A stretch of DNA of 64,000 nt, from assembly GCA_959347315.1 (NCBI GenBank), contig OY365822.1, positions 5,828,008 through 5,892,007 on the forward strand, written 5' to 3'. Source of the stretch: Bimastos eiseni (lineage: Eukaryota > Annelida > Clitellata > Crassiclitellata > Lumbricidae). Position 1 is the stretch's first letter. Each line of letters begins with the position of its first letter. Made by a program: the position numbers and the translations under genes. Below are positions 1,201-45,322 of this stretch, in pieces. Under the pieces are notes generated by a model. That model was not told the origin of the DNA. It saw nothing but the letters and a program-made list of their open reading frames with translations, and made no database searches.

Positions 1201-4200
1201 ATGGGTAATAATGAATCAGTACAAGAGCCTGCGGCTGTGTCTGAAAACACACAAAACGCAAGTTACGCTGGCAACTCCTCCGAGACTCTTAAAATCGTCA
1301 GGATTGTTGGACTAACCGTGGCGTTCCCAGGCATCATGGGGGTATATCATGCTCATCGTTTTCTGACTAGATCCAACCATACGACTTTGGATCGTGTCAT
1401 TTCGCACCGTACTGGATCCAACATTGCAGAGCATCCGTTGAGAAGCAACTCAATTGCTAATATTCGCCAGCCTTTAGGTATAACGTTTCTTCATATTGCT
1501 GCTCAGAGGGGTAGCGTAGAAATGGCGAAATCGTGCATAGATTACGATGGTGATGTCAATACGGTTGACAGAAATGGTGACACTCCTCTTGATCTTGCAT
1601 TAAGAAATGGTCATTTAGACGTTGCAGAGATATTGTTAAGAAATAAGGCAGTTGCTAATTTTCGCAATGCCTCAAGTGAAACACTTCATATCGCTGCTGA
1701 AAGAAATTACTTGGAAATGGTCAAAGCATTGATTCATAACAATGTGAACGTTAATGCGGTTAACAGAGATGGCAACACTGGTCTTCATCTTGCACTAAGA
1801 AATGGTCATTTGGAAGTTACAGAGGCTTTGTTAAGAAATATGGCAGACACCAATATTTCCAATGTTTCACGTGAGACTCCTCGTCATATTGCTGCGGAAA
1901 TGGGTTACGACGAAATAGTCAAAGCAATGTTAAACTCCGATGATGAAGTTAATGCTGTGGACATAAATGGCAACACTGCTCTCCATCTAGCAGCAAGCAA
2001 TGGCCATATCGCAGTGGTAAATGTCTTGCTCAATCTGAGCACGGAAAGGAACGTGCTAACTCGTTCGCCGTTGGTTAAACTGCCGTTTAGCCAAGTTCCT
2101 GCATATGAATTGAAGCTGTCGCAACACCCTCTGAGTAAAAGAGCTGATACTAATATTCACAATGTTGCAGGTAAAACGCCTCTTCATATCGCTGCTGAAA
2201 TGGGTTACGTGGAAATAGTCAAAGCATTGATGGATTCTGATGGTGAAATCAATGCGGTTGATAGAAACGGCGACACTGCTCTTCATCTTGCAGCAAGCAA
2301 TGGCTACAGCTTTGTTGTAAATGTATTACTCAATCAGAGTGTGGTAAGGGGTGCGCAGATTCGTTCGCAGCCCACGGCAAACGAAGTTGCTGCAGGTGAA
2401 TTTCAACTATCGCATAGTACCCTAAAAAACAAAATTGATAAGGGTCTTACTTCAACCATAAATGCAGCTGTCAATGGACAACCAACACCACCTTACTATG
2501 CAGTTGAGCAAGGCAAAGCAGAACTTGTTGAGAATTCAATATATAACGGTGCTAATGTTAATGCCGGTAACAACGCCAAGATGACTCCGCTTCATTTAGC
2601 CTCTCAAAATGGTCACACATTGATTGTTAAAATTTTACTGGACAACCATGCTACCGTGGACGTCTTAAAGCAAGTTAAAAAAACGCCTTTGCATTTAGCA
2701 TCAAAGAATGGTCATGCAGATACCGTAGATTTGTTACTACGTCGTGGCATTTGCGACTTCGTGTTGACAAACCGTAAGGAGACACCATTACACGTTGCCG
2801 TCATAGAAGGTCACACGAAAGTTGTTAAGGTTATTTTGGAACACAGCCGCAGAATTTCTCAGAAATTGGCAAAAGACGGGAATAAACTTCAAGAGAATAC
2901 CAAAAAAGGCGTCATAACATTTGAGCTCCTGAATTCCGATGGTCGACGTGTTTCGGCTGAAATAGTTTATGCACAAAGAAACATGCCATTGGAGTTAAAT
3001 AGAGACTCAAAGGGAAACACTCAACTCGCACTCGCAGTGTCTTCGGTTGACCGGAAAGTGGTTAAGCTATTGCTTAGTGTAAATGAATGTATGTATTCAG
3101 AGTCGGACATAGCACATTCCTTTCGCTCCATTATTAAAAGAATCCTGTCTGAGGAGTTTACGCACGAGGATCCAAGTGACGCTATAAAATGCAGGCTGAA
3201 TTTTAAAAAACTCGCACAATTACTAATTAACTCCACTAATATTAATGTAAATCATCAGGACTCTGGATTGAATACCTTCCTTCACAATGTGATGTATCAG
3301 AATAAAGAACATTCAGCTTTAGCCACGGAGTCAAGCAGACTGACTTTGCAGTTTCAAATCATAGACGATGTGATAAAACTATTATTAGGGAAAGGAGCAG
3401 ACTGCAATGTGAAAAATCTTTTGGGCAAAACGCCTTTGATAATTGCGTCTGAGAAAGGCTGTTGTGACGTCATCAAAACTTTATTTGACTGGGAAGAAAA
3501 TTCAGAAATGACGCTTGACCTTGACGCTAGAGATCGTTTTGGAGCTACTGCTTTGATTAAAGCAGCCGAAAACCATCATGTCTCAGTTGTGCGACTTCTG
3601 CTAAGCCATAAAGCTTCCGTAAATTTGTACAACTATTGTGGATTTACAGCCTTGCACGCAGCTATCTATGAGCCAAATAGGGATCTGTTTGATTTGTATT
3701 TCTTCTGCGAAAGGCTCGTAAAGCGAAATTTCGACGACGATCAGCTTCAGATTACCATCCGTGCTTATCAAAACCGCAGGAAAGAAATCGGGAAACCAGA
3801 TGCAGTAATTGACTTATTGCTAAATTGTGTGAGCCAAATTGCGGTAATTTCTCGATTTGCACCGGTCGTTGCAATGTTGCTTGTGAATGATGAAACTAAT
3901 GTGAATGCTATAGACTACAGTGGAAATACGCCACTTGATTTGGCGCTGGAGTCTTCCAAGCGAATTACATCAGCGACCTTAACATCACTTAAGAATAGCG
4001 GTGCAGCTCGAGTGTATCAGGAAAAAAACCGACTGTCCTCAACCTGTTTAGAGGCTTTTCTTCAACTACTGAGACTCCAATTTAGGCATTGTCAAATTTG
4101 TACCGAAAAAGACATTTTCGAAAATCTACAGAGTGTGTTATCAGTAACTGCTTTAGAGGTAAACAAAATGGCAATAGAAGACCAGAGAGGTCGAAACCCA

Positions 4201-6083
4201 CTTCATCGACTGTTCATCTCTCGCATTTTATGTAGCGCAGTCAAACCTCAGAGAGACCAGAATAACAAAGATAATCTAGACTTAATGATTGATGTAATTC
4301 TTCTAAGACCAGGAAATTTCTTGGAATTGGCCACTGCAAGAGATGACAAAGGAAGAACTCCGTTACACTACGCTGTCATGCTAAAATCCAGCATGAGCAA
4401 GCGAGATGTCGATCTAGTGAAGGTGCTATTGGAAATGGTAAGCGTAAACGTAACTGATGTGTTCGGAAAACCCCTTTACACTACACAGAAATGGATGATC
4501 AATACGAATTTCTTCTCCAGTGCGGAGCCAATGAAAACACAAAAGACAAATTCGGATATACCCCTAAAGATCTTAAGCAACTGCGAAAGTCGGTGAAGGT
4601 CAACGAAGGAACCGCTAGGAATTTGCCAATCGGAAAAAAGGCACTTTACATGCCCATGGATGTTGCTCAATTCCTCAACCCAAAACATGTGACAGAATTA
4701 AGGATGAATCATAAACTAGTTGAAACTGTGCGAATTAACTCCCATTCACCTTGCCCTGAGGAATCATCAGAAAAAACTATTTGGATGATATGGACCCAAA
4801 ACGAACTATTTCGTCTCAACAGACGACTAAGACAACTTAAACCATCAGTACAAAACTTCATTGAGCGTTTGGCGGATGGTATAAAGGAAAAGGACGCTCG
4901 ATTTGAGTGCCAACCAATTTTAGTTGGAAGTGCCGATGAAGACACAAAAGCCTTCATTTCGTCGGACTTTGACTTTCGCCTTAAATTGGTTAAATTCAGC
5001 CTGCTTTGTAAAACCTTTCCACATCCATTGAGTTCGAAGGGCTTCTTTCAAATGAAATGGAAGTCGAGCGAAGTTGCAAGTAGTCGGAGTGGCGAGAAGT
5101 TTGACTGTTTTTTCAACTACGATCAGTGCTTACTGACTAATGAAGTTAATTCTAAATTCCAAATTCTAGTGGAAGATGTTTTAAAGGACCCTAAATTCTG
5201 GCAAGACGAACATCACTTCGAAAGGAACCTGAGTAATGAAGCAAAATCTGAGAAGCCACCTGGTCTGTATAAGACTGTGCAACTAAAAATGATTCATCCC
5301 ATAGAGGACGGAGAGGGCAAATTTGTTTTCATCAACATTTCAATTGACATTGTTGCCTATATCACCGTGGAAGGATGGTGGGCAGACGATCCACTCCCGG
5401 TTGGAATAAGCCCATCTGAGAAAGCAAACGGCTCTACGATGATCTTTGACAGACCACGCTTTGATCCATCCATGCCAGATGGTGATCGCTTTCTATTCTC
5501 CGAAACATTGGTCAGAATTTCATTTGCATCGCTCGAAACTCGATTCGTAAGGGAAAGCTCGCTTTTAATTAAAGCAGCATACACAGTTTGCAAAATGTTA
5601 ATTAACAAACAATGGGGAACAACTTATCAGCTGAAGACTTGTCTTCTGTTTTGCATGGAGGCATTTAATGTCATGAATGCGAGTGAGTCAAGAATAGACG
5701 ACGAGATTACACCAAAAAAACTCGCCTTCTGGGTCGAAAGGCTCATGTTTTGCTTCATGGAGTTTTCCCGTCATGGCGTTTTTCCTTGGTACTTCATGCC
5801 CTCGATCAAACAGCAAGTTGTTAAAAGCGATCGTCCTGGAGATAACAAGTATCAGACAATAAAAACGATAGTCGATGAAGAGAAGGAGGAAGTCGATTCT
5901 TTACAATACCCCGTGGTATATGGAATTTACCTTGACCTATGTCCAGATGATACAGCCGTTGATGTACCGATAATTCCAGACAAAATTGCAAAGAATAGTT
6001 GCTGTGTCAATCCTGATCCAAACTGGGAACAATTTGATAGAGAAGATTTCATTAGACGGCTATCTTCACGTAATTTCAACTAA
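1201..6083 (+). CDS. Gene 1: ankyrin-repeat protein with C-terminal Mab-21/cGAS-like nucleotidyltransferase, interrupted by a 1-base frameshift
   Basis: The ATG at 1201 has a good context (G at -3 and +4). The first frame runs to a stop at 4596 and the second continues to 6083. The two join if one A is missing from the A run at 4467-4470, where genes 2, 3 and 4 read GGAAAAACC or GGGAAAACC in frame. The repaired length would be about 1,627 residues. Ankyrin repeats fill roughly residues 92-1145, with many TPLHLAA-type helices. The C-terminal half shows VGSADEDTK, then SDFDF (D at 4965 and 4971), then SIDIV (D at 5346), which is the Mab-21/cGAS catalytic triad. The helical lobe follows with YQLKTCLLF and WYFMP. 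No cGAS-type H-C-C-C zinc thumb is visible. Residues 2-6 (GNNES) fit an N-myristoylation signal, and residues 32-49 are hydrophobic. The family makes cyclic dinucleotide-type messengers when active; activity here is inferred. The frameshift is either a sequencing error or an inactivating change. Confidence 0.82.
1843..2412 (+). repeat. Internal tandem duplication of a 300-base ankyrin module in gene 1
   Basis: The stretch beginning at 1843 (ADTNISNVS...) recurs at 2143 (ADTNIHNVA...), offset by 300 bases or 100 codons. Each unit carries two ankyrin repeats plus a linker ending in a LSQHPL/LSHSTL-like motif. Similarity is clear but imperfect, so the duplication is not very recent. Gene 2 lacks this expansion, which explains part of gene 1's greater length. 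Confidence 0.7.
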
Positions 6084-6203
6084 TTAATACAATTCCTTTG
6101 TTCTTAAATCAATAATAATCGCAGTTCATAGTCCATAAGTTGATAATGACATCATATAAAGTATTGTCTGCAAACTGATTCCTTATTCTGATTCATACAA
6201 TAA
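6084..6203. other. 3' flank of gene 1
   Basis: A+T-rich sequence after the gene 1 stop codon. No canonical AATAAA was seen immediately downstream. It holds AATAATAAT-type sequence at about 6110. Confidence 0.3.
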
Positions 6204-6420
6204 TACCATGTATCAATTGAAGGCTTGCATTCGCTTTTGCAAGGAGACTATTTCTGCCCGATATGGAAAAGAAGACGAATTCATTCGAATGGAACTGGAC
6301 TTCGGGTTTAAAGTGGATTATGTTTCGTTTCGCGGAGTTTTCGCGGAAGCGTATTTTACTTTATAACTAGGTCTACATGATCTCGGTCAAACAGCAAGTA
6401 GCAAACACGGTTCAACGGTT
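6204..6420 (+). pseudogene. Decayed Mab-21 C-terminal fragment (relic of a fifth gene copy)
   Basis: Starting at 6204 the DNA reads like the gene 1 segment that encodes TTYQLKTCLLFCMEA. Further on, GTTTCGTTTCGCGGAG and CGGTCAAACAGCAAGT match the parts encoding the MFCFMEFSR region and the IKQQVV tail. Stops and frameshifts interrupt it, and no ankyrin part precedes it. It lies directly behind gene 1, so it is probably a truncated tandem duplicate. Confidence 0.65.
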
Positions 6421-13018: not shown

Positions 13019-13032
13019 ATTTTGTTGCGCAG
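13019..13032 (+). other. Predicted 3' splice site before gene 2
   Basis: ATTTTGTTGCGCAG, the counterpart of the acceptors ending at 1120, 26278 and 41296. It lies 81 bases before the first usable ATG. Confidence 0.5.
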
Positions 13033-13113: not shown

Positions 13114-16100
13114 ATGGATAATAAGAAATCAGTACACAAGCCTGCGGGTGTGTCTGCAGACACGCGAAGTTCAGGTGATGTCAGAGTATTGCCAGATCAC
13201 CGAAGAGAAGTTAATGCGCCTGGCGAACGTGAAGACTCAAGCGTCAATTGCGTTGCTTGTTTCTCCAGACGCACAGATCGCGGAGGTAAAGTTGACGCGG
13301 TTGACAAAAATGGCGAAACTGCTCTTCACCATGCGGCAAAAAGGGGAAATACTGAGGAGGTGCAGCAGCTCCTTCTGAGAAGCAACGCAAACAGTCCAAA
13401 TGATTGCAAATTTAAAGGTACGAATGTAAATGCATGTAACAACGACAAGCTGACTCCACTTCATTTAGCCTGTCAAAGAGGTCACACATCGATTGTTAAA
13501 ATTTTACTCGACAATGGAGCTATAGTGGACGTGATGAAACAATCCGAAGAAACGCCATTTTATCTTGCAGCTAAGAATGGTCATGCAGATGTTGTGGATT
13601 TGTTACTAAGCCATGGCTTATGCGATTTCGTGTTGACAGACGATTTTGAAACACCATTACACGTTGCTGTCGAAGAAGGTCACACGAAAGTTGTTCGGGT
13701 TATTTATGAAAAATTAGCAAAGGATCGACGTGAAAATGTAAAGAAGTCGACTGAGGCCAGAGACGTCAAGAAAATATCACTTTTTAGATCTGATCGTCGA
13801 TTTGCTTCAGGTGGAGTAGTTTTGAGAGAAGAAGACCTACCTCTGGAGATACGGAGAACATCAAGAGAATATACTGCTCTCCAACGCGCTGTTCGTTTAG
13901 CCCAACCAGAAATGGTTAAGCTCTTGCTCAGTGCAAACGATAATGCGTATTCGGAAAAGCATCTTAGAATGGGTTTTCATGAATTGATACAGGCGTTCTA
14001 CGTGATTCCACGTGAAGAACATTCAAACATCGTCAAAGAAATCGAAAAAGCTCTTATTAATTCCAGCAAATTTAATGTCAACTACCAGGACGACGCTGGG
14101 GAAGCCTCAATTCACTACATGATGCACTTATCAAATAATTATCCTCCCAATAAGATTCACATGGGATACTTGATACAGCTGCTTTTAGAGAAAGGAGCAG
14201 ATTTCAACTTGAAGGATTGTTTTGGCCGGACGCCCTTGATAATTGCCTCCCAATTGGGCTGCTGTGATGCTATTCAAATTTTGTTTAACTGGGAAGAAAA
14301 ATCTGGAACGAAGCTCGACATTGACGCAAGAGACGAATATGGAGCAACTGCTTTGATTAAAGCAGCTGAAAGGCGGCACGTACCAGCAGTTCGACTGCTG
14401 CTTAGCCATAAATTATCAGTGAATTTGTTCGACTATTATGGATTTACTGCCTTGCATGCAGCTATCTACGAGCCAAATGCGGACTGGTTTGATTTGCATT
14501 TCTTCTACAAGGAGCTGCTTAAGAGAGATGCTAACGGTGATTATTTTCTTGCAACTAGTGGCAGCAACCAACCTACCTGGAAAACTGACTCTTTGGATCT
14601 AAATAAAGTAACTGAGAGGCTGCGTACACATCTTGAATATGACAAGAAAATCGCTCCATTCAAAGAAGAAATTGTTAAGTTATTGTTGGCTAATGATGAA
14701 ATTGATGTGCATGCCCTAGACTTCAGAGGAAATACGCCACATGACTTGGCAGTCAAGTCTGCCAGACCAAACGCTCCTGCGATTATCAAAGCACTTAAGA
14801 ATCGCTGTGCCATTAGAACGTGCCGGGAGCACGAAACGCCAATAGAAATGGCAAGGGTTGACAAAAGAGGTCGAAACCCACTTCATCGACTGATCATCTT
14901 CCAGACTGCACGTTATAATAGAAAGTACCGAAGTGAGTTCAAAATAATAGAGATTGGTGAAAATGTCAATTTCGTGGTTGATGGAATTCGTCTAAGACCA
15001 CAAAGTTTACAAGATTCGGTCGCTGAAAGCGACGACAAGGGAAGAACACCACTTCACTACGCTGCCATGATGCCATCATTGGGATTACAGCGAGGATTGG
15101 AATCAGTCGATGACATTGAACGACATTGCGATGTAGTGAGGGCGTTAGTTGAAATGGGTTCTGACGTAAACGCGGTTGATAAATACGGGAAAACCCCTTT
15201 ACATTACGCAGATACATATAAGCAATGCAAATTGCTCGGCCAGTATGAAAGTTCGATCACGATAAAAGACCAACGCGGACATACGCCTACAAATCTTACG
15301 AAGCTACGCCAATCAGTTATCAGCGAAAGAAACGCACGGCAATCGTCAATCGAAAAGCATGAATATTCCACTTCCACAGATTTTGCGCAGATACTCAACA
15401 CTAATCATGTGACAGAATTGACGAAGCGAAAACTGGTTCACTCGATTCGCTTTTTCGACCAATCGCCTCGCCCTAAAGAATCAGCAGAGAAGACGATTTG
15501 GAAGATATGGAAACAAAGCGATTTTGTTAGCCTTAATGGACGCCTCAAAAATACTAAAGAGTTAATACAAGAATTCATGGTTCATTTGGCGGCTGGTATA
15601 AAAGAAAAGGATGAGCGATTTGAGTGCCAACCGATTTTAGTTGGAAGTGCCAAAGAAGAAACAAAAGTAGTCATTTCAACAGATTTTGACTTCAACTTCG
15701 AACTGATTAAATTCAGTTCCCTTTGCGAAGCGTCTCCACATCCACTGGGTCCGAAGGGATATTTTCAACTGAAAAAGACGTCAAGTGAGAATGCAATGAG
15801 TCAGAATGACGAGAAGTTTGCCTCTTTCTTCAACGCAGATCAGTGGTTATTGACTAATGAAGTTAACTCTAGATTCAATATTACTTTAGAAGAAGTCTTA
15901 AGTGATCCCGCCCTCTGGCAAAGCGAATGTAATTTTGAGTGGAACGACATAAAATATATGCACAAAACTGCATCTGATGAGCGAGGTAGTATGTGTGAAA
16001 CTGTACAACTTAGAATGATTCATCCAATTGATGATGGAAAGGGTGGCTCCATTTTTGTCAACATTTCAATTGACATTGTTGCTTGTCTTCAGATAACGGG

Positions 16101-16788
16101 GTGGTTGCCAGAAGACCCACTGCCAGATAGCATAAGCCCATCTGTGAAGGCAAAAAGTTCAACGATGGTCTTTGATAGGCAACGGTTGGATTCCTCTAAA
16201 AAAATTAGTATTCGTTTTTCCGAAACGTTTGCCAGGATTTCGTTTGCGCAGTTAGAAAGTGATATCATAGAACAAAGTCCGCCTTTAATTAAAGCAGCCT
16301 ATATAATTTGCAAGCTGCTACTTTATACTGAACCGAAAACTACATATCAATTGAAGACCTGTCTTCTGTTTTGCATGGAGGCTCTTAATGCCAGAAATGT
16401 AAATGAGACGAGAAACGATAACGAATTTACACAAGAGCAGCTCGCCTTCTGGGTCGAGAGGATCATGTTTTGCTTCTTGGAGTTTTCACGACATGACGTT
16501 TATCCTTGTTACTTCATGCCTTCTTTCAAACAGAAAGTTGCAAGGACGACCAATGATCAGAGAATTTTGATGAAAATCAATGATAAGCAAAAGTCAGCAG
16601 TTCCGTTACGTTACTCTATGGCTTGTGGAATTTATTTTGACCTATGTCCAGATGGTACTTCAATTGATATACCTATAATTCAAAAGAACGTTCCTGAAGA
16701 AAGTTTTGATGCAAATCATGATCCAAACTGGGAGCAATTTGATCGAAAAGAATTCACAGCAAAGTTATCTTCACGTATCTCCAGTTAA
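13114..16788 (+). CDS. Gene 2: ankyrin-repeat protein with C-terminal Mab-21/cGAS-like nucleotidyltransferase
   Basis: An uninterrupted frame of 1,224 residues. The open frame could be extended to 13060 only by using a TTG. The ATG at 13114 aligns with the gene 1 start (MDNKKSV against MGNNESV), so I use it. Ankyrin repeats span about residues 65-735. The nucleotidyltransferase shows VGSAKEETK (G844, S845), TDFDF (D857, D859) and SIDIV (D987), so the predicted catalytic triad is intact. The helical lobe has YQLKTCLLFCMEA and CYFMP, and the protein ends with DPNWEQFDRKEF and a short basic tail. There is no zinc thumb. Gene 2 lacks the Gly-2 of gene 1. Cytosolic sensing is inferred from the cGLR family; the ligand is unknown. 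It could instead be a non-catalytic Mab-21 relative, though the triad argues against that. Confidence 0.92.
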   Translation: MDNKKSVHKPAGVSADTRSSGDVRVLPDHRREVNAPGEREDSSVNCVACFSRRTDRGGKVDAVDKNGETALHHAAKRGNTEEVQQLLLRSNANSPNDCKFKGTNVNACNNDKLTPLHLACQRGHTSIVKILLDNGAIVDVMKQSEETPFYLAAKNGHADVVDLLLSHGLCDFVLTDDFETPLHVAVEEGHTKVVRVIYEKLAKDRRENVKKSTEARDVKKISLFRSDRRFASGGVVLREEDLPLEIRRTSREYTALQRAVRLAQPEMVKLLLSANDNAYSEKHLRMGFHELIQAFYVIPREEHSNIVKEIEKALINSSKFNVNYQDDAGEASIHYMMHLSNNYPPNKIHMGYLIQLLLEKGADFNLKDCFGRTPLIIASQLGCCDAIQILFNWEEKSGTKLDIDARDEYGATALIKAAERRHVPAVRLLLSHKLSVNLFDYYGFTALHAAIYEPNADWFDLHFFYKELLKRDANGDYFLATSGSNQPTWKTDSLDLNKVTERLRTHLEYDKKIAPFKEEIVKLLLANDEIDVHALDFRGNTPHDLAVKSARPNAPAIIKALKNRCAIRTCREHETPIEMARVDKRGRNPLHRLIIFQTARYNRKYRSEFKIIEIGENVNFVVDGIRLRPQSLQDSVAESDDKGRTPLHYAAMMPSLGLQRGLESVDDIERHCDVVRALVEMGSDVNAVDKYGKTPLHYADTYKQCKLLGQYESSITIKDQRGHTPTNLTKLRQSVISERNARQSSIEKHEYSTSTDFAQILNTNHVTELTKRKLVHSIRFFDQSPRPKESAEKTIWKIWKQSDFVSLNGRLKNTKELIQEFMVHLAAGIKEKDERFECQPILVGSAKEETKVVISTDFDFNFELIKFSSLCEASPHPLGPKGYFQLKKTSSENAMSQNDEKFASFFNADQWLLTNEVNSRFNITLEEVLSDPALWQSECNFEWNDIKYMHKTASDERGSMCETVQLRMIHPIDDGKGGSIFVNISIDIVACLQITGWLPEDPLPDSISPSVKAKSSTMVFDRQRLDSSKKISIRFSETFARISFAQLESDIIEQSPPLIKAAYIICKLLLYTEPKTTYQLKTCLLFCMEALNARNVNETRNDNEFTQEQLAFWVERIMFCFLEFSRHDVYPCYFMPSFKQKVARTTNDQRILMKINDKQKSAVPLRYSMACGIYFDLCPDGTSIDIPIIQKNVPEESFDANHDPNWEQFDRKEFTAKLSSRISS

Positions 16789-24290: not shown

Positions 24291-24310
24291 TCTTAGCACA
24301 CTTCGTGTTA

Positions 24311-25639: not shown

Positions 25640-25890
25640 GGTGCCATCATTCTGTTAGAGCGAGGAGGTCGATGTCATGAATCTCATGATGTTGCATTGT
25701 ATCGACGACTGGGGTGCATTTTTCACGCAGCGACCGGACATTCCACGTAGCCATTCGGAGTCCATTTGATGGACCAGGATCAGGTGTAGGAGATGATATG
25801 TGAACAGGGTGAGGTGGGGGAAGAACTGTGGCACCTGAGAGGGGTTGAGCGTGCTCCAAGTGGTCTGAACAGCTGTTTTTCAATTTGCGC
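25640..25890 (-). mobile_element. LINE ORF2 N-terminal (endonuclease start) fragment (copy A)
   Basis: The minus-strand frame ends with NGLRMATWNVRSLREK and DIDLLALTE, the first strands of an APE-type endonuclease from CR1-like LINEs. It stops shortly after. The intervening 24,590-25,640 is unrecognisable, so this and the RT fragment may be separate insertions. Confidence 0.7.
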
Positions 25891-26262
25891 TATGCATACT
25901 AGTCATTTCAAAGTCTCGGCTCATTGTCGCGTAATGTAAACCTTTTTGAAGAGATTTATGGATTCGTAGAAAGTAGCGGATCGGTTGATGAATTTTGGCA
26001 GAAGGTCATAGTAAAGCATTCACACACTTAACCGATGTATTCAAAGTAACAAACCACATTGTAATTGATTGTTGATATTGCACTGAATTTTAAAACAACA
26101 CAAGATTGTGTGAGGGTGAAACATGTGAGAGGATTGCAATTAGAATTAGACTCATCAACACCAAACGTTCATGCATATTTGCATATTTGGTATCAATAAT
26201 TAAATTGATCACGTGATTCAATTCTAGTCATCATTTGTATAAAATCTGCTAATCGCGCTCAT

Positions 26263-26278
26263 GTATTTTGTTTCACAG
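26263..26278 (+). other. Predicted 3' splice site before gene 3
   Basis: GTATTTTGTTTCACAG, counterpart of the acceptors ending at 1120, 13032 and 41296. It lies 81 bases before the gene 3 ATG. Confidence 0.55.
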
Positions 26279-26359
26279 ATGACGGGCGCCTAGAACACTT
26301 CGGAAATTTTTTTTATCGAGAACAGTCATTTGCCGAATAGAATCCTGAGTCATACAGAA

Positions 26360-29300: not shown

Positions 29301-30304
29301 GACGGAAGCCAAGTGAAAATGCAAAGAATCGGACTGACAAGGAGTTTGACAGTTTCTTTAACAAAGAGCATTGCCTTTTGACAAACGAAGTCAAATTTAG
29401 ATTCAGGATTCTTGTGGAAGATGTCTTAGAGGACCCACAATTCTGGAAATATGAACATCTGTTGGAATGGGATTTGAGATATGAAGTGAAATCTGAAAGG
29501 CCAGTTGAAAAGCTAATTGGTTTGTGTAAGACCTTGGATCTAAAAATGATACATCCCATTGAGGACGGAGAGGGGGGCTTACTTTTTGTAGACATTTCAA
29601 TTGACATTGTCCCATGTGTTGACGTTGAGGGTTGGCATTCAGTAGATCCGCTGCCTGTTGGCACAAGACCATCTGTGAAAACAAACGGTTCTACTATGAT
29701 CTTTGATGGACCCCGTTTTGATCCATTAAATGCATCTGGTGATCAATTTCTGTTTACCGATACATTTGCAAGAATTTCATTTGCACGTTTCGAAAGTGCT
29801 ATCATAAAAGAAAGTTCGCCTTTACTGAAAGCAGCGTATATTGTTTGCAAGATGATACTTTATGATCATTCGGGTTGTACTTACCAGTTGAAGAATTGTC
29901 TTCTATTTTGCACGGAGGTCCTTTATGCTCAAATCTCTAGTGAAGCACTGGACGAAGACGAAATTACGTCAAAGGAACTCGCCTTCTGGGTTGAGAGGAT
30001 CGTGTTTTGCTTCGCGGAGTTTAATCGACGTGGCGTTTATCCTTGTTATTTTATGCCCTCGTTCAAACTGCAAGTTGCTGAAAATTTCAATTTTGGAAAA
30101 TTGACGAAAACCTATGAAGAGAAACAGGTAATAGGTGCCTTTGAGTACACTATAGTTGATGAAATTTACCTTGACATGTGTCCAGATGGCACTGAAATTG
30201 AACTAATTCCGAAAGAAAGATGCGATGAGAATTATGATCCAAACTGGGAATTTAATCGCGATGAATTCATTAGGAAACTATCTTCACGTTGTCCCAGCTA
30301 TTAA
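26360..30304 (+). CDS. Gene 3: ankyrin-repeat protein with C-terminal Mab-21/cGAS-like nucleotidyltransferase
   Basis: An uninterrupted frame of 1,314 residues from the ATG at 26360. The open frame extends to 26330 only through a TTG. Residues 40-80 are strongly acidic (runs of D and E). Ankyrin repeats cover about 81-840. The nucleotidyltransferase follows with VGGADEETK (G938, G939), ADFDF (D951, D953) and SIDIV (D1082). The helical lobe has YQLKNCLLF (about 1175) and CYFMP (about 1230), and the end is DPNWEFNRDEF plus a basic tail. The predicted catalytic triad is complete. The Asp-to-Asp spacing of 129 residues is longer than in cGAS, and no zinc thumb is seen. It is nearly identical to gene 4. 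A role as a cGAS-like immune receptor is inferred from domain architecture. Confidence 0.93.
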   Translation: MNKETTQTTMDAKCFVADEAQINASSHTPSKVEELIKNNENDDCFISEADADDDEWGFQVHRVDSEADDDDAGDDDDDDAQCLSQLHLAADCGDTEAVRSLLMSSTNVDVLDTENNTPLHYASKNGHVHIVNLLLSKDACAKSKNASRETLHHLMAEKRHLTQSDELEIVDIQLSLSSTFNSECKGQAIQNADIVDNLIFSGANVNACNNAKMTPLHLACQNGHASIVEILLDNHATVDVMKQAKETPLYLAAKNGHAAVADLLMRRGVCDFVLTNSSQTPLHVAIKEGHTEVVEVLLTQSRMIYEKLAKEGEILRRNAKRGVIPVEFQKPDERRVFAEIVWTEIITPLVIRKDGLMNAPIVLAAFSKDPKMVQLLLSVDQCIYSKEDIADSFHSLILAMDKTYGQEASECMSNFMNVAKFLIDSSKFDANYQDQELNTYLHNVIEWNCDYYSDSRPNDEKCPRLKNDIRNDVLQLLLENGADINVKNIRGDTPLIIASGIGNCDAIQILFDWEDKSGMKLNLDARDKYGATALIRAAKEHHVSVVQLLLSHKASINLYDYYGYTALHAAIYEPNTNWLDFEYFCSGFRKRIFGCVDSFTVSDRIRQLHECNEEMALFKGEIVKSLLANDEIKVNALDFRGNTPLDLAVKSSKPITRATFEALKNCGAVGQLLESEDEAPAKMTSVDKRGRNPLHRLIIYHISGCDSREDTGANTEQDEERLNSMVDRIHLTPENFRHLATATDDEGKTPLHYAAMQTPLISNQNHNLVNLLVKLGSNVNASDMYGKTPLHYADIESYDSLSQYEDLVEHGANENTQDRSGYTPKVLKQLRESVEVSNSNVWETFYASRESGLVPRANHVTDLTKHRSIETIKIKSQSPRPQESSEEAIWKIWNNNELFRLNKRLSQLKPSVQTFIERLANGIKERDERFECQPIIVGGADEETKAVLSADFDFSFKLIKFSQICDPLPHPLGPKGFFQLRRKPSENAKNRTDKEFDSFFNKEHCLLTNEVKFRFRILVEDVLEDPQFWKYEHLLEWDLRYEVKSERPVEKLIGLCKTLDLKMIHPIEDGEGGLLFVDISIDIVPCVDVEGWHSVDPLPVGTRPSVKTNGSTMIFDGPRFDPLNASGDQFLFTDTFARISFARFESAIIKESSPLLKAAYIVCKMILYDHSGCTYQLKNCLLFCTEVLYAQISSEALDEDEITSKELAFWVERIVFCFAEFNRRGVYPCYFMPSFKLQVAENFNFGKLTKTYEEKQVIGAFEYTIVDEIYLDMCPDGTEIELIPKERCDENYDPNWEFNRDEFIRKLSSRCPSY

Positions 30305-32515
30305 TGCACTTCTAATGCATTGCACTGCAGAATTACTGCATTTGAAATTGCCTACTTTCCAAGTTCAGAAGTGATCATACGATAGACTGTCTATATCGCT
30401 GCACACATGTGAGTGCAGTACTTCCTCAAGCCCTCAACATAGACTATACCTAGTAACCGCTTATGGGAAGACTAGAACTCGTACCCTACGCGTTATTGGA
30501 CCAGCTCTCAACTCAGTCTTCTACCGTGCTCCACGTGTAAAAAATTCTGTGAGACCTGCGATTTCAGAACATAAGAGAAATTGAGATGTTTTGTCAGTAT
30601 TGAGAGTCTGACGCTGTTTAATAGGTATTTAACATGACTTTTGTAAATAATCTTAGCAAATTTTATGTGCAATTGATCCAAACAAAGTCCACCTAATTGC
30701 GACTTTTATTCAAGCCAGAAATTATGCTACTCTGCTTCGAAAGAAACTAATTTGAGATCCTTTTTGTGTGCACTAGCCTAAATGACGTTTTTATATAAAA
30801 TACGGTTATCATGGGTGTGTGAAATTGTACCCTATGAATGTCTTTATTTAAGAAATCCGTTGGACCTATTAATTAATAGAGCAGTGTCCATCAGATTGTA
30901 TTGACAGATTTAATTTGTTTTGCTTGTAGAATTATCATGAGAATATTATAATCGAGCATGATAATTCTTATGAAATTGCTTTTCATTAGATTATTCTTGT
31001 TATTTTTAGTTTTCACTAAGTTGCTGCTCTCCGTATAAAGTTTCATTGTGCAATATATTATCTCCAACTACAAAGCGCGATTACACAGCGCTTGAATACG
31101 ACTGCAGGCGAACAGGCGCTCCGATGGCGGAGACCTTATAAGAGGGTACAGCTGGAACAGTTCTACCAAAATTTGAAGGGAGGATGGAGTGTCTTACATT
31201 CCCCATATTTCAGATGATTGAATGTCAGCTTGATGATGTTTTATACCTGCATGACTGCATCTGGATTCGTGGTGCGCCTGTTGTTTCATTTGTCAAGTAG
31301 GGGTCTTCACTGAGTGACTTATCAATGTGAGATACAAGACACAGGCTGAGGGAAGGACCAGGTAGTGTTCCAGAGATCATGGCCTCACACGGCGGTCTAG
31401 ATGTTTCGCATAGTCTGGTGTAGACCCACACTGTGTGGCTGTGTATCGGCTATCCGGTACCTTTCGCACCAGTGATGCTTTATAATATATATATATATAT
31501 TCATATATTGCATAGGCCTACGTCATGCAATCACACGTATACCTAGTCAGCCTTCAGACAATAACACAAAGTTGCCCATCTCAGCCACCACAGTATCGTC
31601 TGCTCTCATCTATACTCACTTAGTTGTTATGACTTTATGACAGATTTATCCTAATTGACAGCCTTTCTCATTTTATTGCATATAGCGTTTTGGTTATTTG
31701 AATGATTTAGTAGTCTTGCTGCAGCATTGTTTTTTTTATGGGAAATGAGGCGAGCAATGGTAGCAGCAAACGCTTAAATTTAAAAACTATTTCAACTTTT
31801 AAGTTGACCTATATTAAATTAAACTGTAATGAGTAAATTTAAATCTGATGTGGTGTGCTGTAGAATATGTACTCGTTTTGTTGCGGTATCCTATCCGAAG
31901 GGCGAAAATGAAAAGGGTGACAATGGAAAGGGTGGCCTTTTTATTGTCGCCTTTTAAACGTGCGCCCTTTTGATTGTCGCTCTTTTGATTATGTGCTTTT
32001 TTGAACGTTCGCCCTTATGATTTTCGCCCTTCTTATTGCGCCCTTTTTATTATCGCCCTTTTGATAGTAAACCTCGACTTTGTTGCAACCCATTGCTTTG
32101 TAAGAAATTAATAATTATCGAAGATATACTTTACAATACATTGCAATATCACAGAACTTTCACATCGACATTAGGCCATACAGCAGTTCACGTCGCTTTC
32201 TATAATCTATTATTATGCCCTGGTGAGACATTGTATGATGGGAGCTTACTACTACACGTTTTGATGCATCAATGCATTTTATCACTGCCACCTCATGAAC
32301 TAGAATATCCTACAATATCCTACATGTGTTGTGTATACGGCCTGTAGGTCGAATTATTTATTTTAGCTAAAGGGGACATCCACCCTACTACAAGCGCATG
32401 CGCAGACTTCAAACTTCTAAATTGCCCCTCGAAAACAAGCGCTGACCTCCAGCTTAGGATATTCGTGAAAACAACAGCAACAGTTAGATGGACCCACTGT
32501 ATTGTGAAATTTGAA
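30305..32515. other. 3' flank of gene 3, no gene seen
   Basis: Identical by eye to 45323-47533. Frames at 31225-31431 (minus) and 32036-32347 (plus) match no family known to me. A TA repeat lies at 31484-31500. Confidence 0.4.
31905..32072. repeat. Degenerate TTTTGATTGTCGCCC minisatellite with an inverted start
   Basis: About eight units of roughly 15-20 bp, such as GCCCTTTTGATTGTCGC. They are preceded by inverse units (GGGCGAAAATGAAAAGGG), so the array can fold back on itself. The same array sits at 46923-47090 in copy B. Confidence 0.7.
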
Positions 32516-32716
32516 ATTTTGATATCGCCCTTCTTCCAACATTTTTTGCTCAGAAGTGAACGCGCCTCGACAACGTAATTGCAGTTGTACTGCAGAGCAA
32601 TTATGTGCGAAGGACTTGTTCAAGGTCCCAAACCAGTGACTCCTCGAGCGAGGGTCGAGTCCGCTCACTCAGCGCACACTGGGCTGGCCGCTCTAACCGA
32701 TCGGCTATCGTGCCAC
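32516..32716 (-). mobile_element. tRNA-derived SINE (copy A)
   Basis: On the minus strand it starts TGGCACGATAGCCGATCGG (box A-like), with GGTTAGAGCGGCC, and has box B-like GAGTCGACCCTCGC. Then come CTTCGCACATAATTGCTCTG and the tail CAAAAAATGTTGGAAGAAGGG. A better preserved copy is at 58870-59087. Confidence 0.75.
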
Positions 32717-33210
32717 ATGTGTAATATGACAAGACTCAACATAATAATAGGGATGAATTCTAGATATTCAAGCGAAGGGTTGAGACTGTTTGTATGCCAA
32801 TTGGTTTGCTTATTATGCAAACGCATGACGACAACGCTTCGCCTGTGTGTCACTACAGGCCTAATAGCTGCCGCTATCCACCTCAGCCGCGCAAGACATA
32901 ATAGCCCACGAAATCTGGCTCAAAAACAGCGACAACACGTGCAAAATTGCTTCAGAGGCTTTCTAAACGGTTTTCTACACAGAAATCATTTCGGAATTTT
33001 TACATAGTGAAAATCCCACAAAATTGGTTCATGGGGTCTCCCACCAAAATGAACTTCAAAATAAAACTCATAGTTCAAAAGGTCAGTGCAAAAGGCAATG
33101 GTCAACCAAGCCAAAATATTTGTTCCAGTTGGGTAATTAATTTATCTGCTAGACAATAGAGACCAACCGAAACCATGTTTTCATTTTCGGTGACACGAAT
33201 GCACCACCGA

Positions 33211-34150: not shown

Positions 34151-34159
34151 TTATGCAGT

Positions 34160-39296: not shown

Positions 39297-39600
39297 GCGT
39301 GTCATCAGCATACTGGTGACAAGAGACACCTAGATTAAGGATGCGCCCTGCGCAGAGGTGCACCAGATAAATGGTAGTGAGTGGTGACAAAACCTGTAGA
39401 CCAACTGATAGAGAAACCAGCTCTTGCTGGTAAATCCAAATGCCACTGATAGGTACCCATTGCCGATTGGAGAGGAATGATTGGAGCCAGAGGAGCGCAG
39501 TACCAGAGGTGCCGAATAGTGTCAATAGGCGATCAAACAGGATAGAGTGATCGACAGAGTGATGAGCGAACGCTAGAAAATAGCACGATAGAAAACAACA
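39205..39600 (-). mobile_element. LINE reverse-transcriptase fragment with YADD box (copy B)
   Basis: The minus frame reads HSVDHSILFDRL..., LFGTSGTALLWLQSFLSNR, LSPL-TIYLVHLCAG and CHQYADDTQT. YADD is the catalytic box of reverse transcriptases. The upstream part lacks an open frame, so it is a fragment. Confidence 0.85.
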
Positions 39601-40657
39601 TTTAGCATTTTAGATTGTTAAGGCATACTTTGTCAATGCTACATTATATCATTTAGAAGATAGCAGTCTTATTTTTGAGACGCACAGTTGCAAATCACCC
39701 TGAACTTACACATTCGCCACAAATTGACAGCAGAATCGAGCAACTACAGGGCACTGATCAGTGGTGATTTCTCGGTCTCTGTTTGATTGACTAAAACATC
39801 CATCTCTTTTCATTTGCTCTGATCTGTAGTAATCAAATTTTGGTGATATGAGATGTAAGTGATAATCCAAGAAGTCGTTGCTGGATAAAATTGCAAAAGA
39901 CCGTTCGAGTCCGACTGATTTTGAAAGTAAGAGAAGACTTTGTCTTTGATATTTAAAAGCAAATAGACGTACAGGTCAACCAAATTAGCATGCTGTTAGC
40001 TTACAGCGAATAATTTGGATCCATCCATGTACATAACTTATTCGCACTGAGGTGTGAGGGCTTTATCTGACAGAAGGAAGTGTGTGTACTGGCACGAATG
40101 GCGAGGGGAGGGTCTCAACAGAATGAGAACGTACGCAAGCAATATTTATAAATAATCATGACATCAACATTAGCGTATTTGTATTATAAACAGGCTAATG
40201 TGGACATCCTTATATGAAATTTATGTTTGCGCATGTAGGCCCAAGTCATACGAAGTTATGACTGAGTCTGTTGAATCAGACCACATTGTTCCAGGAGTTC
40301 AAGGTAGCAAGTGCTGTACTATTGGCATGATCCTGGAGAGGGAGATTGAGATCACCTGGTAACACCAGCTGGGTGTTATGCAAGACAAATGTGTCCAGTA
40401 TAGTCGATTATTCAGCCAAGAAAGCGACGGATGGTGGCATGGACGGCATATGGTAAGGACAGTGAAGGAACCACGGCTGGACAAGACCGAGGCCACCAGT
40501 ATTTAAAAGGTGAGAGGGATACTGGTCAGTGGGCTGTTGGTCATTCGAAGAGAGTCCCTGTAGTAAAAGACCTTGCCATCACCATGGTCGGTCGTCTTCA
40601 CCAGATGGAATATCCCAGCGGAAAAGAGCGTAGAAGAGAGACATCCCATGAGCAACC

Positions 40658-40908
40658 GGTGACATCATTCTGTTAGAGCGAGGAGGTCGATGTCATGAAT
40701 CTCACGATGTTGCATTGTATCGACGACTGGGGTGCATTTTTCACGCAGCGACCGGTCATTCCACGTAGCCATTCGGAGTCCATTTGATGGACCAGGATCA
40801 GGTGTAGGAGATGATATGTGAACAGGGAGAGGTGGGGGAAGAACTGTAGCACCTGAGAGGGGTTGAGCGTGCTCCAAGTGGGCTGAACAGCTGTTTTTCA
40901 ATTTGCGC
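40658..40908 (-). mobile_element. LINE ORF2 N-terminal (endonuclease start) fragment (copy B)
   Basis: Counterpart of 25640-25890, reading GLRMATWNDRSLREK and DIDLLALTE on the minus strand. Confidence 0.7.
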
Positions 40909-41280
40909 TATGCATACTAGTCATTTCAAAGTCTCGGCTCATTGTCGCGTAATGTAAACCTTTTTGAAGAGATTTATGGATTCGTGGAAAGTAGCGGATC
41001 GGTTGATGAATTTTGGCAGAAGGTCATAGTAAAGCATTCACACACTTAACCGATGTATTCAAAGTAACAAACCACATTGTAATTGATTGTTGATATTGCA
41101 CTGAATTTTAAAACAACACAAGATTGTGTGAGGGTGAAACATGTGAGAGGATTGCAATTAGAATTAGACTCATCAACACCAAACGTTCATGCATATTTGC
41201 ATATTTGGTATCAATAATTAAATTGATCACGTGATTCAATTTTAGTCATCATTTTTATAAAATCTGCTAATCGCACTCAT

Positions 41281-41296
41281 GTATTTTGTTTCACAG
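41281..41296 (+). other. Predicted 3' splice site before gene 4
   Basis: GTATTTTGTTTCACAG, identical to the gene 3 acceptor and 81 bases before the ATG. Confidence 0.55.
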
Positions 41297-41377
41297 ATGA
41301 CGGGCGCCTAGAACACTTCGTAAAAAATTTTTATCGAGAACAGTCATTTGCCGAATAGAATCCTGAGTCATACAGAA

Positions 41378-44300
41378 ATGAATAAAGAAACAACACAGAC
41401 AACTATGGATGCGAATTGCTTTGTAGCAGATGAAGCTCAAATTAGCGCACCTTTACACACCCCTTCAAAAGTTGAGGAATTGATTAAAAATAATGAAAAT
41501 GACGACTGCTTTATTTCCGAAGCTGACGCCGATGATGATGAGTGGGGCTTTCAGGTTCACAGAGTAGATTCTGAAGCTGATGATGATGATGCTGGTGATG
41601 ATGACGATGATGATGCACAATGCCTTAGTCAGCTTCACCTTGCAGCCGACTGTGGTGATACGGAGGCTGTTAAAAGTCTACTGATGTCGTCAACGAATGT
41701 CGATGTACTGGACACAGAGAATAACACTCCCCTACATTATGCGTCTAAAAATGGTCACGTTCATATTGTCAATCTTCTGCTAAGCAAGGACGCCTGTGCT
41801 AAGTCAAAACTCGCATCCAGGGAGACTTTGCATCATCTGATGGCAGAGAAACGCCATTTAACACAAAGTGATGAGCTCGAAATCGTGGATATTCAATTGA
41901 GTCTTTCTTCTACCTTTAATTCAGAGTGCAAAGGTCAAGCGATACAAAATGCAGATATTGTAGATAATCTGATATTTAACGGTGCGAATGTTAATGCTTG
42001 TAACAACGCCAAGATGACTCCACTTCATTTAGCCTGTCAAAATGGTCACGCTTCAATTGTTGAGATTTTACTGGACAACCATGCTACCGTGGACGTCATG
42101 AAACAAGCTAAGGAAACACCGTTATATCTTGCAGCCAAAAACGGTCATGCAGCTGTCGCAGATTTATTAATGCGTCGTGGTGTGTGCGATTTCGTGCTGA
42201 CAAACCGCAATCAGACACCATTGCACGTTGCCATCAAAGAAGGTCACACAGAAGTTGTTGAGGTATTACTGACACAGAGCCGCATGATTTATGAGAAATT
42301 AGCAAAAGAGGGGGAGATACTTCACAGGAATGCCAAGAGAGGCGTTATCCCAGTTGAATTTCAGAAACCTGATGAACGACGTGTTTTTGCTGAAATAGTT
42401 TGGACAGAAATAATCACACCCCTGGTGATAAGGAAGGACGGACTCATGAATGCCCCAATTGTGCTTGCAGCGTTTTCGAAAGACCCGAAAATGGTTCAGC
42501 TATTGCTAAGTGTAGATCAATGTATTTATTCAAAGGAGGATATCGCAGACAGCTTTCACTCCCTCATACTGGCAATGGACATGACTTATGGACAGGAGGC
42601 TAGTGAATGCATGAGCAATTTCATGAATGTCGCGAAATTTCTAATCGACTCGAGCAAATTTGATGCAAACTACCAAGACCAGGAATTAAATACATATCTT
42701 CACAATGTGATAGAGTGGAATTGCGATTATTATTCTGACAGTCGGCCTAATGATGAAAAGTGTCCACGTTTGAAGAATGATATCAGGAACGACGTGTTGC
42801 AATTGTTATTAGAGAACGGAGCAGATATAAACATTAAGAATATCCGCGGCGATACACCTTTGATAATTGCTTCTGGAATTGGTAATTGTGATGCCATTCA
42901 AATTCTGTTTGATTGGGAGGATAAATCAGGAATGAAACTCAACCTCGACGCAAGGGACAAATATGGAGCAACTGCTTTGATTAGAGCAGCCAAAGAGCAT
43001 CATGTATCAGTAGTACAATTGCTGCTAAGCCATAAAGCTTCGATTAATTTGTACGACTATTACGGATATACTGCATTGCACGCAGCTATCTATGAGCCAA
43101 ACACGAACTGGTTGGATTTTGAGTACTTCTGCAGTATGTTTCGCAAACGCATCTTTGGATGCGTTGATTCTTTTACAGTGAGTGACCGAATACGGCAACA
43201 CTATGAATGTAACGACGAGATGGCTCTATTCAAAGAAGAAATAGTTAAATCGTTGTTGGCTAATGACGAAACTAAAGTGAATGCCTTAGACTTCAGAGGA
43301 AATACGCCACTTGATTTGGCAGTTAAGTCTTCCAAGCCAATTACCAGAGCGACTTTCGAGGCACTTAAGAATTGTGGTGCCGTAGGACAGTTACTGGAAT
43401 CGGAAGACGAAGCACCAGCCAAAATGACAAGTGTAGACAAGAGAGGTCGAAACCCCCTTCATCGACTGATCATATATCACATCTCAGGCTGCGATTCTAG
43501 AGAAGATACGGGAGCCAACACTGAGCAGGACGAAGAACGGTTGAACTCTATGGTTGATCGAATTCACCTGACACCAGAGAATTTTAGGCATTTAGCTACT
43601 GCAACAGATGACGAAGGAAAAACTCCACTTCACTACGCTGCCATGCAGACACCACTCATTTCCAATCAAAATCACAATCTAGTAAATCTGCTAGTCAAAC
43701 TAGGTTCTAACGTCAACGCATCTGATATGTATGGAAAAACCCCTTTGCATTACGCAGACATCGAGAGCTATGACAGCCTGAGTCAGTACGAAGATCTCGT
43801 CGAACACGGAGCTAATGAAAACACACAAGATAGAAGCGGATACACACCTAAGGTTCTTAAGCAGTTACGAGAATCGGTGGAGGTCAGCAATAGCAATGTA
43901 TGGGAAACGTTTTACGCATCCAGAGAGTCCGGGTTAGTTCCCCGCGCTAACCATGTGACAGACTTAACGAAGCATAGATCGATTGAAACGATTAAAATAA
44001 AGTCGCAATCCCCTCGCCCCCAAGAATCGTCAGAAGAAGCAATATGGAAGATATGGAACAATAACGAATTATTTCGCCTCAACAAACGCCTAAGCCAACT
44101 GAAACCGTCAGTACAAACCTTCATTGAACGATTGGCTAATGGTATAAAGGAAAGAGACGAACGATTTGAATGCCAACCGATCATAGTTGGAGGTGCTGAT
44201 GAAGAAACAAAAGCCGTCCTTTCAGCAGACTTTGATTTTAGCTTCAAACTGATTAAATTCAGCCAAATTTGTGACCCGCTTCCACATCCACTGGGCCCTA

Positions 44301-45322
44301 AGGGATTCTTTCAATTGCGACGGAAGCCAAGTGAAAATGCAAAGAATCGGACTGACAAGGAGTTTGACAGTTTCTTTAACAAAGAGCATTGCCTTTTGAC
44401 AAACGAAGTCAAATTTAGATTCAGGATTCTTGTGGAAGATGTCTTAGAGGACCCACAATTCTGGAAATATGAACATCTGTTGGAATGGGATTTGAGATAT
44501 GAAGTGAAATCTGAAAGGCCAGTTGAAAAGCTAATTGGTTTGTGTAAGACCTTGGATCTAAAAATGATACATCCCATTGAGGACGGAGAGGGGGGCTTAC
44601 TTTTTGTAGACATTTCAATTGACATTGTCCCATGTGTTGACGTTGAGGGTTGGCATTCAGTAGATCCGCTGCCTGTTGGCACAAGACCATCTGTGAAAAC
44701 AAACGGTTCTACTATGATCTTTGATGGACCCCGTTTTGATCCATTAAATGCATCTGGTGATCAATTTCTGTTTACCGATACATTTGCAAGAATTTCATTT
44801 GCACGTTTCGAAAGTGCTATCATAAAAGAAAGTTCGCCTTTACTGAAAGCAGCGTATATTGTTTGCAAGATGATACTTTATGATCATTCGGGTTGTACTT
44901 ACCAGTTGAAGAATTGTCTTCTATTTTGCATGGAGGTCCTTTATGCTCAAATCTCTAGTGAAGCACTGGACGAAGACGAAATTACGTCAAAGAAACTCGC
45001 CTTCTGGGTTGAGAGGATCGTGTTTTGCTTCGCGGAGTTTAATCGACGTGGCGTTTATCCTTGTTATTTTATGCCATCGTTCAAACTGCAAGTTGCTGAA
45101 AATTTCAATTTTGGAAAATTGACGAAAACCTATGAAGAGAAACAGGTAATAGGTGCCTGTGAGTACACTATGGTTGATGAAATTTACCTTGACATGTGTC
45201 CAGATGGCACTGAAATTGAACTAATTCCGAAAGAAAGATGCGATGAGAATTATGATCCAAACTGGGAATTTAATCGCGATGAATTCATTAGGAAACTATC
45301 TTCACGTTGTCCCAGCTATTAA
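41378..45322 (+). CDS. Gene 4: ankyrin-repeat protein with C-terminal Mab-21/cGAS-like nucleotidyltransferase
   Basis: 1,314 residues from the ATG at 41378 (the open frame to 41348 would need a TTG). Same layout as gene 3: acidic stretch 40-80, ankyrin repeats about 81-840, G938-G939, D951/D953, D1082, then YQLKNCLLF and CYFMP. By my count it differs from gene 3 at about 22 residues, mostly in the ankyrin half (for example residue changes K13N, N23S, S25P, S26L) and the last 120 residues, with only about 6 silent changes. About 1.6 kb of the middle of the CDS shows no difference at all. The triad is intact. It is either a true recent paralogue or an allele misplaced in tandem. Confidence 0.92.
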   Translation: MNKETTQTTMDANCFVADEAQISAPLHTPSKVEELIKNNENDDCFISEADADDDEWGFQVHRVDSEADDDDAGDDDDDDAQCLSQLHLAADCGDTEAVKSLLMSSTNVDVLDTENNTPLHYASKNGHVHIVNLLLSKDACAKSKLASRETLHHLMAEKRHLTQSDELEIVDIQLSLSSTFNSECKGQAIQNADIVDNLIFNGANVNACNNAKMTPLHLACQNGHASIVEILLDNHATVDVMKQAKETPLYLAAKNGHAAVADLLMRRGVCDFVLTNRNQTPLHVAIKEGHTEVVEVLLTQSRMIYEKLAKEGEILHRNAKRGVIPVEFQKPDERRVFAEIVWTEIITPLVIRKDGLMNAPIVLAAFSKDPKMVQLLLSVDQCIYSKEDIADSFHSLILAMDMTYGQEASECMSNFMNVAKFLIDSSKFDANYQDQELNTYLHNVIEWNCDYYSDSRPNDEKCPRLKNDIRNDVLQLLLENGADINIKNIRGDTPLIIASGIGNCDAIQILFDWEDKSGMKLNLDARDKYGATALIRAAKEHHVSVVQLLLSHKASINLYDYYGYTALHAAIYEPNTNWLDFEYFCSMFRKRIFGCVDSFTVSDRIRQHYECNDEMALFKEEIVKSLLANDETKVNALDFRGNTPLDLAVKSSKPITRATFEALKNCGAVGQLLESEDEAPAKMTSVDKRGRNPLHRLIIYHISGCDSREDTGANTEQDEERLNSMVDRIHLTPENFRHLATATDDEGKTPLHYAAMQTPLISNQNHNLVNLLVKLGSNVNASDMYGKTPLHYADIESYDSLSQYEDLVEHGANENTQDRSGYTPKVLKQLRESVEVSNSNVWETFYASRESGLVPRANHVTDLTKHRSIETIKIKSQSPRPQESSEEAIWKIWNNNELFRLNKRLSQLKPSVQTFIERLANGIKERDERFECQPIIVGGADEETKAVLSADFDFSFKLIKFSQICDPLPHPLGPKGFFQLRRKPSENAKNRTDKEFDSFFNKEHCLLTNEVKFRFRILVEDVLEDPQFWKYEHLLEWDLRYEVKSERPVEKLIGLCKTLDLKMIHPIEDGEGGLLFVDISIDIVPCVDVEGWHSVDPLPVGTRPSVKTNGSTMIFDGPRFDPLNASGDQFLFTDTFARISFARFESAIIKESSPLLKAAYIVCKMILYDHSGCTYQLKNCLLFCMEVLYAQISSEALDEDEITSKKLAFWVERIVFCFAEFNRRGVYPCYFMPSFKLQVAENFNFGKLTKTYEEKQVIGACEYTMVDEIYLDMCPDGTEIELIPKERCDENYDPNWEFNRDEFIRKLSSRCPSY

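Follow-up and report, generated by a model that had tools for sequence, protein, structure and literature searches.

An annelid cluster of ankyrin-repeat proteins bearing a C-terminal cGAS-like nucleotidyltransferase domain: candidate ligand-switched receptors

Fusions of ankyrin repeats to the nucleotidyltransferase (NTase) domain of cGAS-like receptors (cGLRs) have been described in animals including the coral Stylophora pistillata, whose genome holds many cGLRs and several STINGs (PMC9980059, a preprint; this paper and PMC8195603, PMC12928593, PMC2639372 and PMC6321704 are cited from part of their text). Among lophotrochozoans, the expanded cGAS family of the oyster likewise joins a Mab-21/cGAS domain to interaction domains, namely DED, TRADD-N and TPR, with ankyrin not mentioned in the cited part of PMC8195603. 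In the shrimp, the invertebrate Mab21 proteins LvMab21-1/2/3 have an antiviral role, which is reported to work without nucleotide synthesis and sets them apart, by description, from the family presented here (PMC12928593). The subject of this analysis is a stretch of 64,000 nucleotides (C17:5828008-5892007, hereafter the window) from an annelid assembly of 660 Mb in 118 contigs, which carries a cluster of genes encoding ankyrin repeats joined to a cGLR-type NTase. The architecture is that of the Stylophora fusions, from which the cluster differs, by description, in its annelid host, its tandem arrangement and a spacer of 122-144 residues between its acid motifs. An earlier note on this DNA had held the fusion to be its most unusual feature; as such it is not new, being already in print (PMC9980059). 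No paper on this annelid clade was found in the open-access literature among the matches listed: the cited part of PMC6321704 contains nothing on an ankyrin-Mab-21 fusion, the fusion terms were not found in PMC10855445 and the word 'annelid' is absent from the main text of PMC9980059. The clade is read here as ankyrin-fused cGLRs that would be switched by a ligand and coupled to STING through a cyclic nucleotide, an account on which the balance of evidence falls, if only just.

Open reading frames (ORFs) at 1153-4596/4458-6083, 13048-16788, 26294-30304 and 41324-45322 on the forward strand correspond to four genes, each with an NTase domain C-terminal to its ankyrin repeats (Table 1). Genes 2, 3 and 4 each consist of a single open coding exon. 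In gene 1, the match of the ankyrin frame to gene 3 ends at position 813 and that of the NTase frame begins at 809; since this frameshift falls within one gene, gene 1 either is probably a pseudogene or contains an assembly error. The same-strand cluster of ankyrin and Mab-21 genes described in the earlier note was borne out by the ORF listing, by Ank_2 and by PF03281 matches to gene pieces, as well as by fold comparison. All four genes share the architecture claimed for them, gene 1 with the reservation that it is itself frameshifted, its second frame resuming near 4467. The fifth, relic copy was also recovered by tblastn and blastn, with E values that are the best of 15 query sequences. Genes 3 and 4 are 99% identical over the NTase part and lie in a segmental duplication of 98.87% identity over 8.7 kb, with extra flanking pieces at 92.5-93.7%. 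An acceptor-like motif, located approximately 80 nt upstream of the ATG in genes 2-4, is common to 8 of the 12 family members displayed. A retrocopy origin of the cluster was rejected because of these shared upstream sites.

Full-length Pfam scans of the genes did not detect PF03281 at 1e-3, genes 1-4 are absent among the matches listed for the genome search with this family, and the C-terminus, when compared with the PDB as a single sequence, yielded chance matches only (4 rows, E 0.21-1.7). Gene pieces, a family alignment and fold comparison were therefore needed to recognise the NTase. Using C-terminal pieces alone, gene 2 scored 28.8 bits against PF03281, above the cut-off of 24.1, whereas genes 1, 3 and 4 scored 17.8-19.4 bits; the PF03281 match expected in the C-terminal third was thus obtained for gene 2 and fell below the cut-off in the others. 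Relatives of an outer clade on contig C13 exceed the cut-off. In alignment A3, comprising 16 family C-termini (three of them, those of gene 1, L043 and L049, being from broken genes), PF03281 matched 15 of the 16 at E ≤1, the best at 2.3e-13; PF20266 (Mab-21_C) was not listed by Pfam for any of them. A profile built from A3 matched three PDB sequences at E ≤1, two cGAS and MB21D2. The structure prediction suggested for gene 3 was obtained with AlphaFold2 as a C-terminal model of low confidence, with a predicted local distance difference test score (pLDDT) of 53.2 and a predicted template modelling score (pTM) of 0.55. The best 50 rows of its fold search were Cv-cGLR1, cGAS and MAB21L1, the best alignment covering model residues 51-451 and both lobes. 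The Mab-21_C half was recognised via the fold and not by Pfam, so that the claim of a full Mab-21 fold is carried by likeness to cGAS, cGLR, MB21D2 and MAB21L1 in the PDB profile and fold searches, while its C-terminal half remains unseen by Pfam. A longer model of gene 2 reached pLDDT 71.4 and pTM 0.70, with 27 of 37 ten-residue blocks of its NTase part (741-1110) at ≥70. Predicted structural homology to cGLR/CD-NTase proteins, a criterion of PMC9980059, was found, and the models indicate that the C-terminus is a two-lobed NTase of the cGAS/cGLR type.

The acid pair ([DE]FD) and the third acid (S[IV]DI) are kept in all 16 A3 members, and together with the fold they uphold the catalytic cGAS/Mab-21 domain noted previously. 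GS at the nucleotide-binding motif is kept in 14 of the 16 and is replaced by GG in genes 3 and 4. For rows L045, P0004, P0008-P0010 and P0021 the glycine found by a relaxed motif is not that of the true motif, and the 16-member counts were taken from other motif analyses. Judged by these residues, activity is predicted for gene 2 and most paralogues, and genes 3 and 4 may have weakened or different nucleotide handling. The GG replacement would also suit a scaffold, that is, a cGAS-like fold that no longer makes a nucleotide, the NTase and ankyrin parts acting by binding proteins; the shrimp Mab21 proteins reportedly bind neither double-stranded (ds) DNA nor dsRNA and make no cyclic GMP-AMP (cGAMP) in response, yet drive antiviral signalling, which they do through activation of IKK-epsilon (PMC12928593). 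Against this stand the three acids kept in 16/16 and the relaxed motif, found in none of the three Mab21L-like genes of the genome. A scaffold is therefore considered unlikely, though it is the rival to be taken most seriously. Mab21L1/2/3 lack a predicted functional active site according to a figure legend of PMC9980059, whereas its text counts Mab21L1/2 among the human cGLRs with complete putative sites; MAB21L1/2 stand separate from the ankyrin-cGLR group in the tree. The annelid clade is cGLR-like in its modelled fold and probably working.

The NTase domains have an isoelectric point (pI) of 4.96-6.53 in 16/16 cases; by this value, which is a proxy for the surface only, they do not present the basic DNA-binding surface of vertebrate-type cGAS. 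The sequence H-x4-7-CC-x5-8-C, which we take to be the zinc-thumb pattern, occurs in 0/16 A3 members, and no histidine is common to all 16. Vertebrate cGAS thus differs from the family, in which the NTase is acidic, is joined to an ankyrin array and lacks a zinc-thumb-like pattern, with 122-144 residues between the acids against 91 in 7lz3. Oyster Cv-cGLR1 (PDB 8gjw) is at 17% identity, and the family is set apart from it by its acidity and its ankyrin array. These features bear on the possibility of a cGAS-type nucleic-acid sensor in which the ankyrin array serves merely as an adaptor. The closest fold among the best 50 rows, Cv-cGLR1, comes from an oyster that has dsDNA sensors among its cGLRs, but nucleic-acid-sensing cGLRs are reported with a pI >8.5 (PMC9980059). 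Such a sensor is distinctly improbable, and the nucleic-acid ligand that had been allowed for is not supported by the acidic pI. The activating ligands identified in the cited part of PMC9980059 are all dsDNA or dsRNA, with none identified for acidic members, and acidic cGLRs are proposed there to answer positively charged, non-nucleic-acid ligands.

Tandem ankyrin repeats were evident from Ank_2 matches to the four ankyrin-bearing frames (E 7.2e-106, 2.6e-61, 2.4e-66 and 1.7e-65), from helical repeats in the gene 2 model and from ankyrin and DARPin (designed ankyrin-repeat protein) chains as best fold matches. An array is present as claimed, yet 'very long' overstates it: 17 repeats were detected in gene 1 and 11-12 in genes 2-4, several of them near zero bits. 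Across 11 intact loci the number detected ranges from 9 to 32, again with several weak. Two loci at C17:5.28-5.32 Mb, L045 and L047, have much lengthened N-terminal arrays of 32 and 19 detected repeats, and a long glutamate-rich acidic stretch precedes the array in a C7 paralogue (L051) and in a public relative (P0001). Concave positions were presumed to be those randomised in DARPins. Variability is highest at these positions (1.66 against 1.10 and 0.78 bits, p 0.0002), where the ratio of nonsynonymous to synonymous change (omega) is 0.60 compared with 0.36 in the outer helix over four pairs (p 0.042; p 0.006 for the nonsynonymous rate, dN). An earlier estimate from six overlapping pairs had been 0.89 against 0.36; the lower value of 0.60 was obtained once four pairs were used and the repeat threshold was loosened. 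In seven diverged pairs no region as a whole showed positive selection, none of their 42 region values exceeding omega 1; one region of genes 3 and 4 gave 1.35, resting on 12 changes. With omega at 0.27-0.94 in diverged pairs, the family is under purifying selection on average.

A genome search with the C-terminus of gene 3 yielded 61 matches. The 22 inner-clade loci examined (4 in the window and 18 fetched, with further fragments on C10, C12 and C17 left out) lie on C17 at 5.27-5.33, 5.81-5.87, 14.05-14.30 and 14.83 Mb, apart from a single locus on each of C6 and C7. The outer group, at 32-40% identity, is located on C13, C15, C17 and C4. In a 35-row tree, with a midpoint root for drawing, the C4 outer copy left out and two rows flagged as long branches, the inner clade separated at 100/100 support. 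Public protein searches returned 21 relatives (P0001-P0021), 13 of which carry both ankyrin and PF03281 in precomputed domains. The clustering also holds beyond the window, 11 of the 22 inner-clade loci having an unbroken ankyrin and NTase frame of 1246-2072 amino acids. The other 11 are broken, and with the frameshift of gene 1 and the 98.9% segmental duplication they would fit a decaying, recombination-prone tandem array of little present function, clustered by repeat-driven duplication only. This explanation is improbable in view of the omega values of the diverged pairs, the long open frames of the 11 intact loci and the grouping of P0001 with L051 at 100/100, from which it follows that at least the L051 line has persisted. 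The annelid clade is clustered and still diversifying, with tandem and segmental duplication.

Mab21L-like genes, so called here on a presumed resemblance, are found elsewhere in the genome, their ORFs being 386-409 amino acids long (L001, L002 and L004). Large clusters of other Mab-21 matches were observed on C5 and C7, many in frames of 600-1060 amino acids with both Mab-21 domains; of L005, L007 and L008, which were inspected, L005 has GS and DFDI near its start. The shared superfamily fold would permit a non-immune role like that of developmental Mab21L genes. This is highly improbable, given that the Mab21L-like genes lie apart as short ORFs and that in the tree, with support of 99/97, the Mab21L-like and C7 rows are divided from the whole ankyrin-cGLR group. 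The match of these Mab21L-like and C7 rows to the family profile is at E 0.015-1.9 only, and the Mab21L-like rows among them (E 0.064-1.9) align unsurely.

Seven PF15009 exon matches over the cut-off show that a STING ligand-binding domain is encoded in the same genome, at C3:3713319-3762939, apparently in several tandem copies, and at C17:9959528-9959752. A receptor that senses proteins and is coupled to STING would agree with the acidic NTase, the STING exons and the variable concave face. The ankyrin array would bind its ligand, most probably a protein and not a nucleic acid, on the concave face; binding would switch the NTase on, and the product would be a cyclic nucleotide read by STING. 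As regards the lineage-specific family of immune sensors put forward in the earlier note, the fold, catalytic acids, cluster and STING exons stand, and its immune role we infer. A bolder version, an NLR-like system in which the variable ankyrin face reads foreign or modified proteins, an acidic, enlarged-core and nucleic-acid-independent NTase makes a second messenger, and the repertoire grows by tandem duplication and change of repeat number, is offered tentatively and is rather unlikely in that full form.

A number of observations weigh against the STING-coupled receptor. The evidence for it is computational throughout, and its link to STING is the shared genome alone. The gene 3 fold matches need caution because of the low mean pLDDT, the best 50 rows for the gene 2 model were all ankyrin-repeat or DARPin chains and so did not probe the NTase, and profile-profile comparison with the Mab21L-like genes of the genome gave no significant result (probability 0.4%, E 0.15). 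The concave-face comparison was made within this ankyrin family alone; in three deep pairs omega was 0.67 against 0.45, which is not significant (p 0.127; dN p 0.028), and the order was reversed in the outer clade (0.52 against 1.04 over 14 and 19 columns, dN p 0.079). Besides the broken loci, in L048 a stop comes one codon after the conserved start. Finally, 0/16 A3 members fit the printed form of the PMC9980059 cGLR pattern (h[QT]GS-X8-20-[DE]h[DE]h-X50-90-h[DE]h), with no known-cGLR control run: the residue before the glycine is V in 14/16 and I in 2/16 where the pattern wants Q or T, and the acid spacer is too long in all 16, the order of glycine, acid pair and third acid being retained. 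In its printed form the rule is too strict to settle membership, since the solved cGAS 7lz3 breaks it too, having V before GS and, in the alignment from the A3 profile search, a spacer of 91 by count, some 30-50 residues shorter than that between the acids of the family. Other Mab-21 rows of the genome (L001, L002, L004, L005 and L008) also fail it, and the suggestion that the published rule singles out the clade was dropped for these reasons. The sole strict match, P0003 (1/46 rows), is spurious, lying at EAEA in the ankyrin part.

Table 1. Coordinates of the family genes and associated features in the window.
Feature	Position	Strand	Remarks
Gene 1, ankyrin part	1201..4480	+	first ATG 1201; repeats ~1477-4380; frame breaks near 4467-4480
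Gene 1, NTase part, other frame	4467..6083	+	LVGS..DFDF..SIDI present
Fifth relic, NTase C-terminal core fragment	6140..6400	+	tblastn E 3.5e-6; blastn E 6.6e-9
Gene 2, one open coding exon	13114..16788	+	ankyrin ~13312-15210; NTase ~15400-16785
Gene 3, one open coding exon	26360..30304	+	ankyrin ~26615-28738; NTase ~28859-30301; GG for GS at nucleotide-binding motif
Gene 4, recent gene 3 copy	41378..45322	+	ankyrin ~41633-43756; NTase ~43877-45319; GG for GS
Segmental duplication copy A, holds gene 3	24304..33046	.	98.87% identity to copy B
Segmental duplication copy B, holds gene 4	39298..48064	.	98.87% identity to copy A
Acceptor-like AG, gene 1	1119..1120	+	after T-rich run, ~80 nt before ATG
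Acceptor-like AG, gene 2	13031..13032	+	upstream; second CAG 11 nt further on
Acceptor-like AG, gene 3	26277..26278	+	upstream of gene
Acceptor-like AG, gene 4	41295..41296	+	upstream of gene

Elsewhere in the window, exons of a degenerin/ENaC-type sodium channel lie at 54141-60044 on the reverse strand (PF00858 8.6e-73 for 54141-55478), the N-terminal exon at 59367-60044 being weak (E 2.9e-4, below the cut-off). Long low-complexity or minisatellite-like tracts at 52745-53436, 57110-57731 and 58115-58492 give rise to spurious ORFs, with a minisatellite-like unit of approximately 100 bases near 52.7-53.4 kb. The genome contains 35 COX1 matches, consistent with many nuclear mitochondrial copies, six of them near full-length COX1, in addition to a mitochondrial contig (C118) of 15,339 bases. 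One nuclear copy (L059) has the order nad3-trnS-nad2-cox1-trnN-cox2-trnD-atp8-trnY-trnG-cox3, in which atp8 was placed by position and a weak frame; cox1-trnN is also present in a piece of the mitochondrial contig (L060). Placement of nad3 between nad1 and nad2 is an annelid trait (PMC2639372). The host is taken as an annelid in the broad sense because nad3 adjoins nad2 and cox3 follows trnY-trnG, and the echinoderm setting assumed in the earlier note was not borne out.

Taken together, the ankyrin-cGLR architecture is already known, and this acidic, diversifying branch of it looks suited to proteins and not to DNA. The Mab-21 radiation to which it belongs in this annelid is very large, with at least 148 matches to PF03281 and at least 150 to PF20266 (matches, not genes). 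A protein-binding array that is most variable on its binding face, coupled with kept catalytic acids, would provide a direct test of whether animal cGLRs sense proteins.

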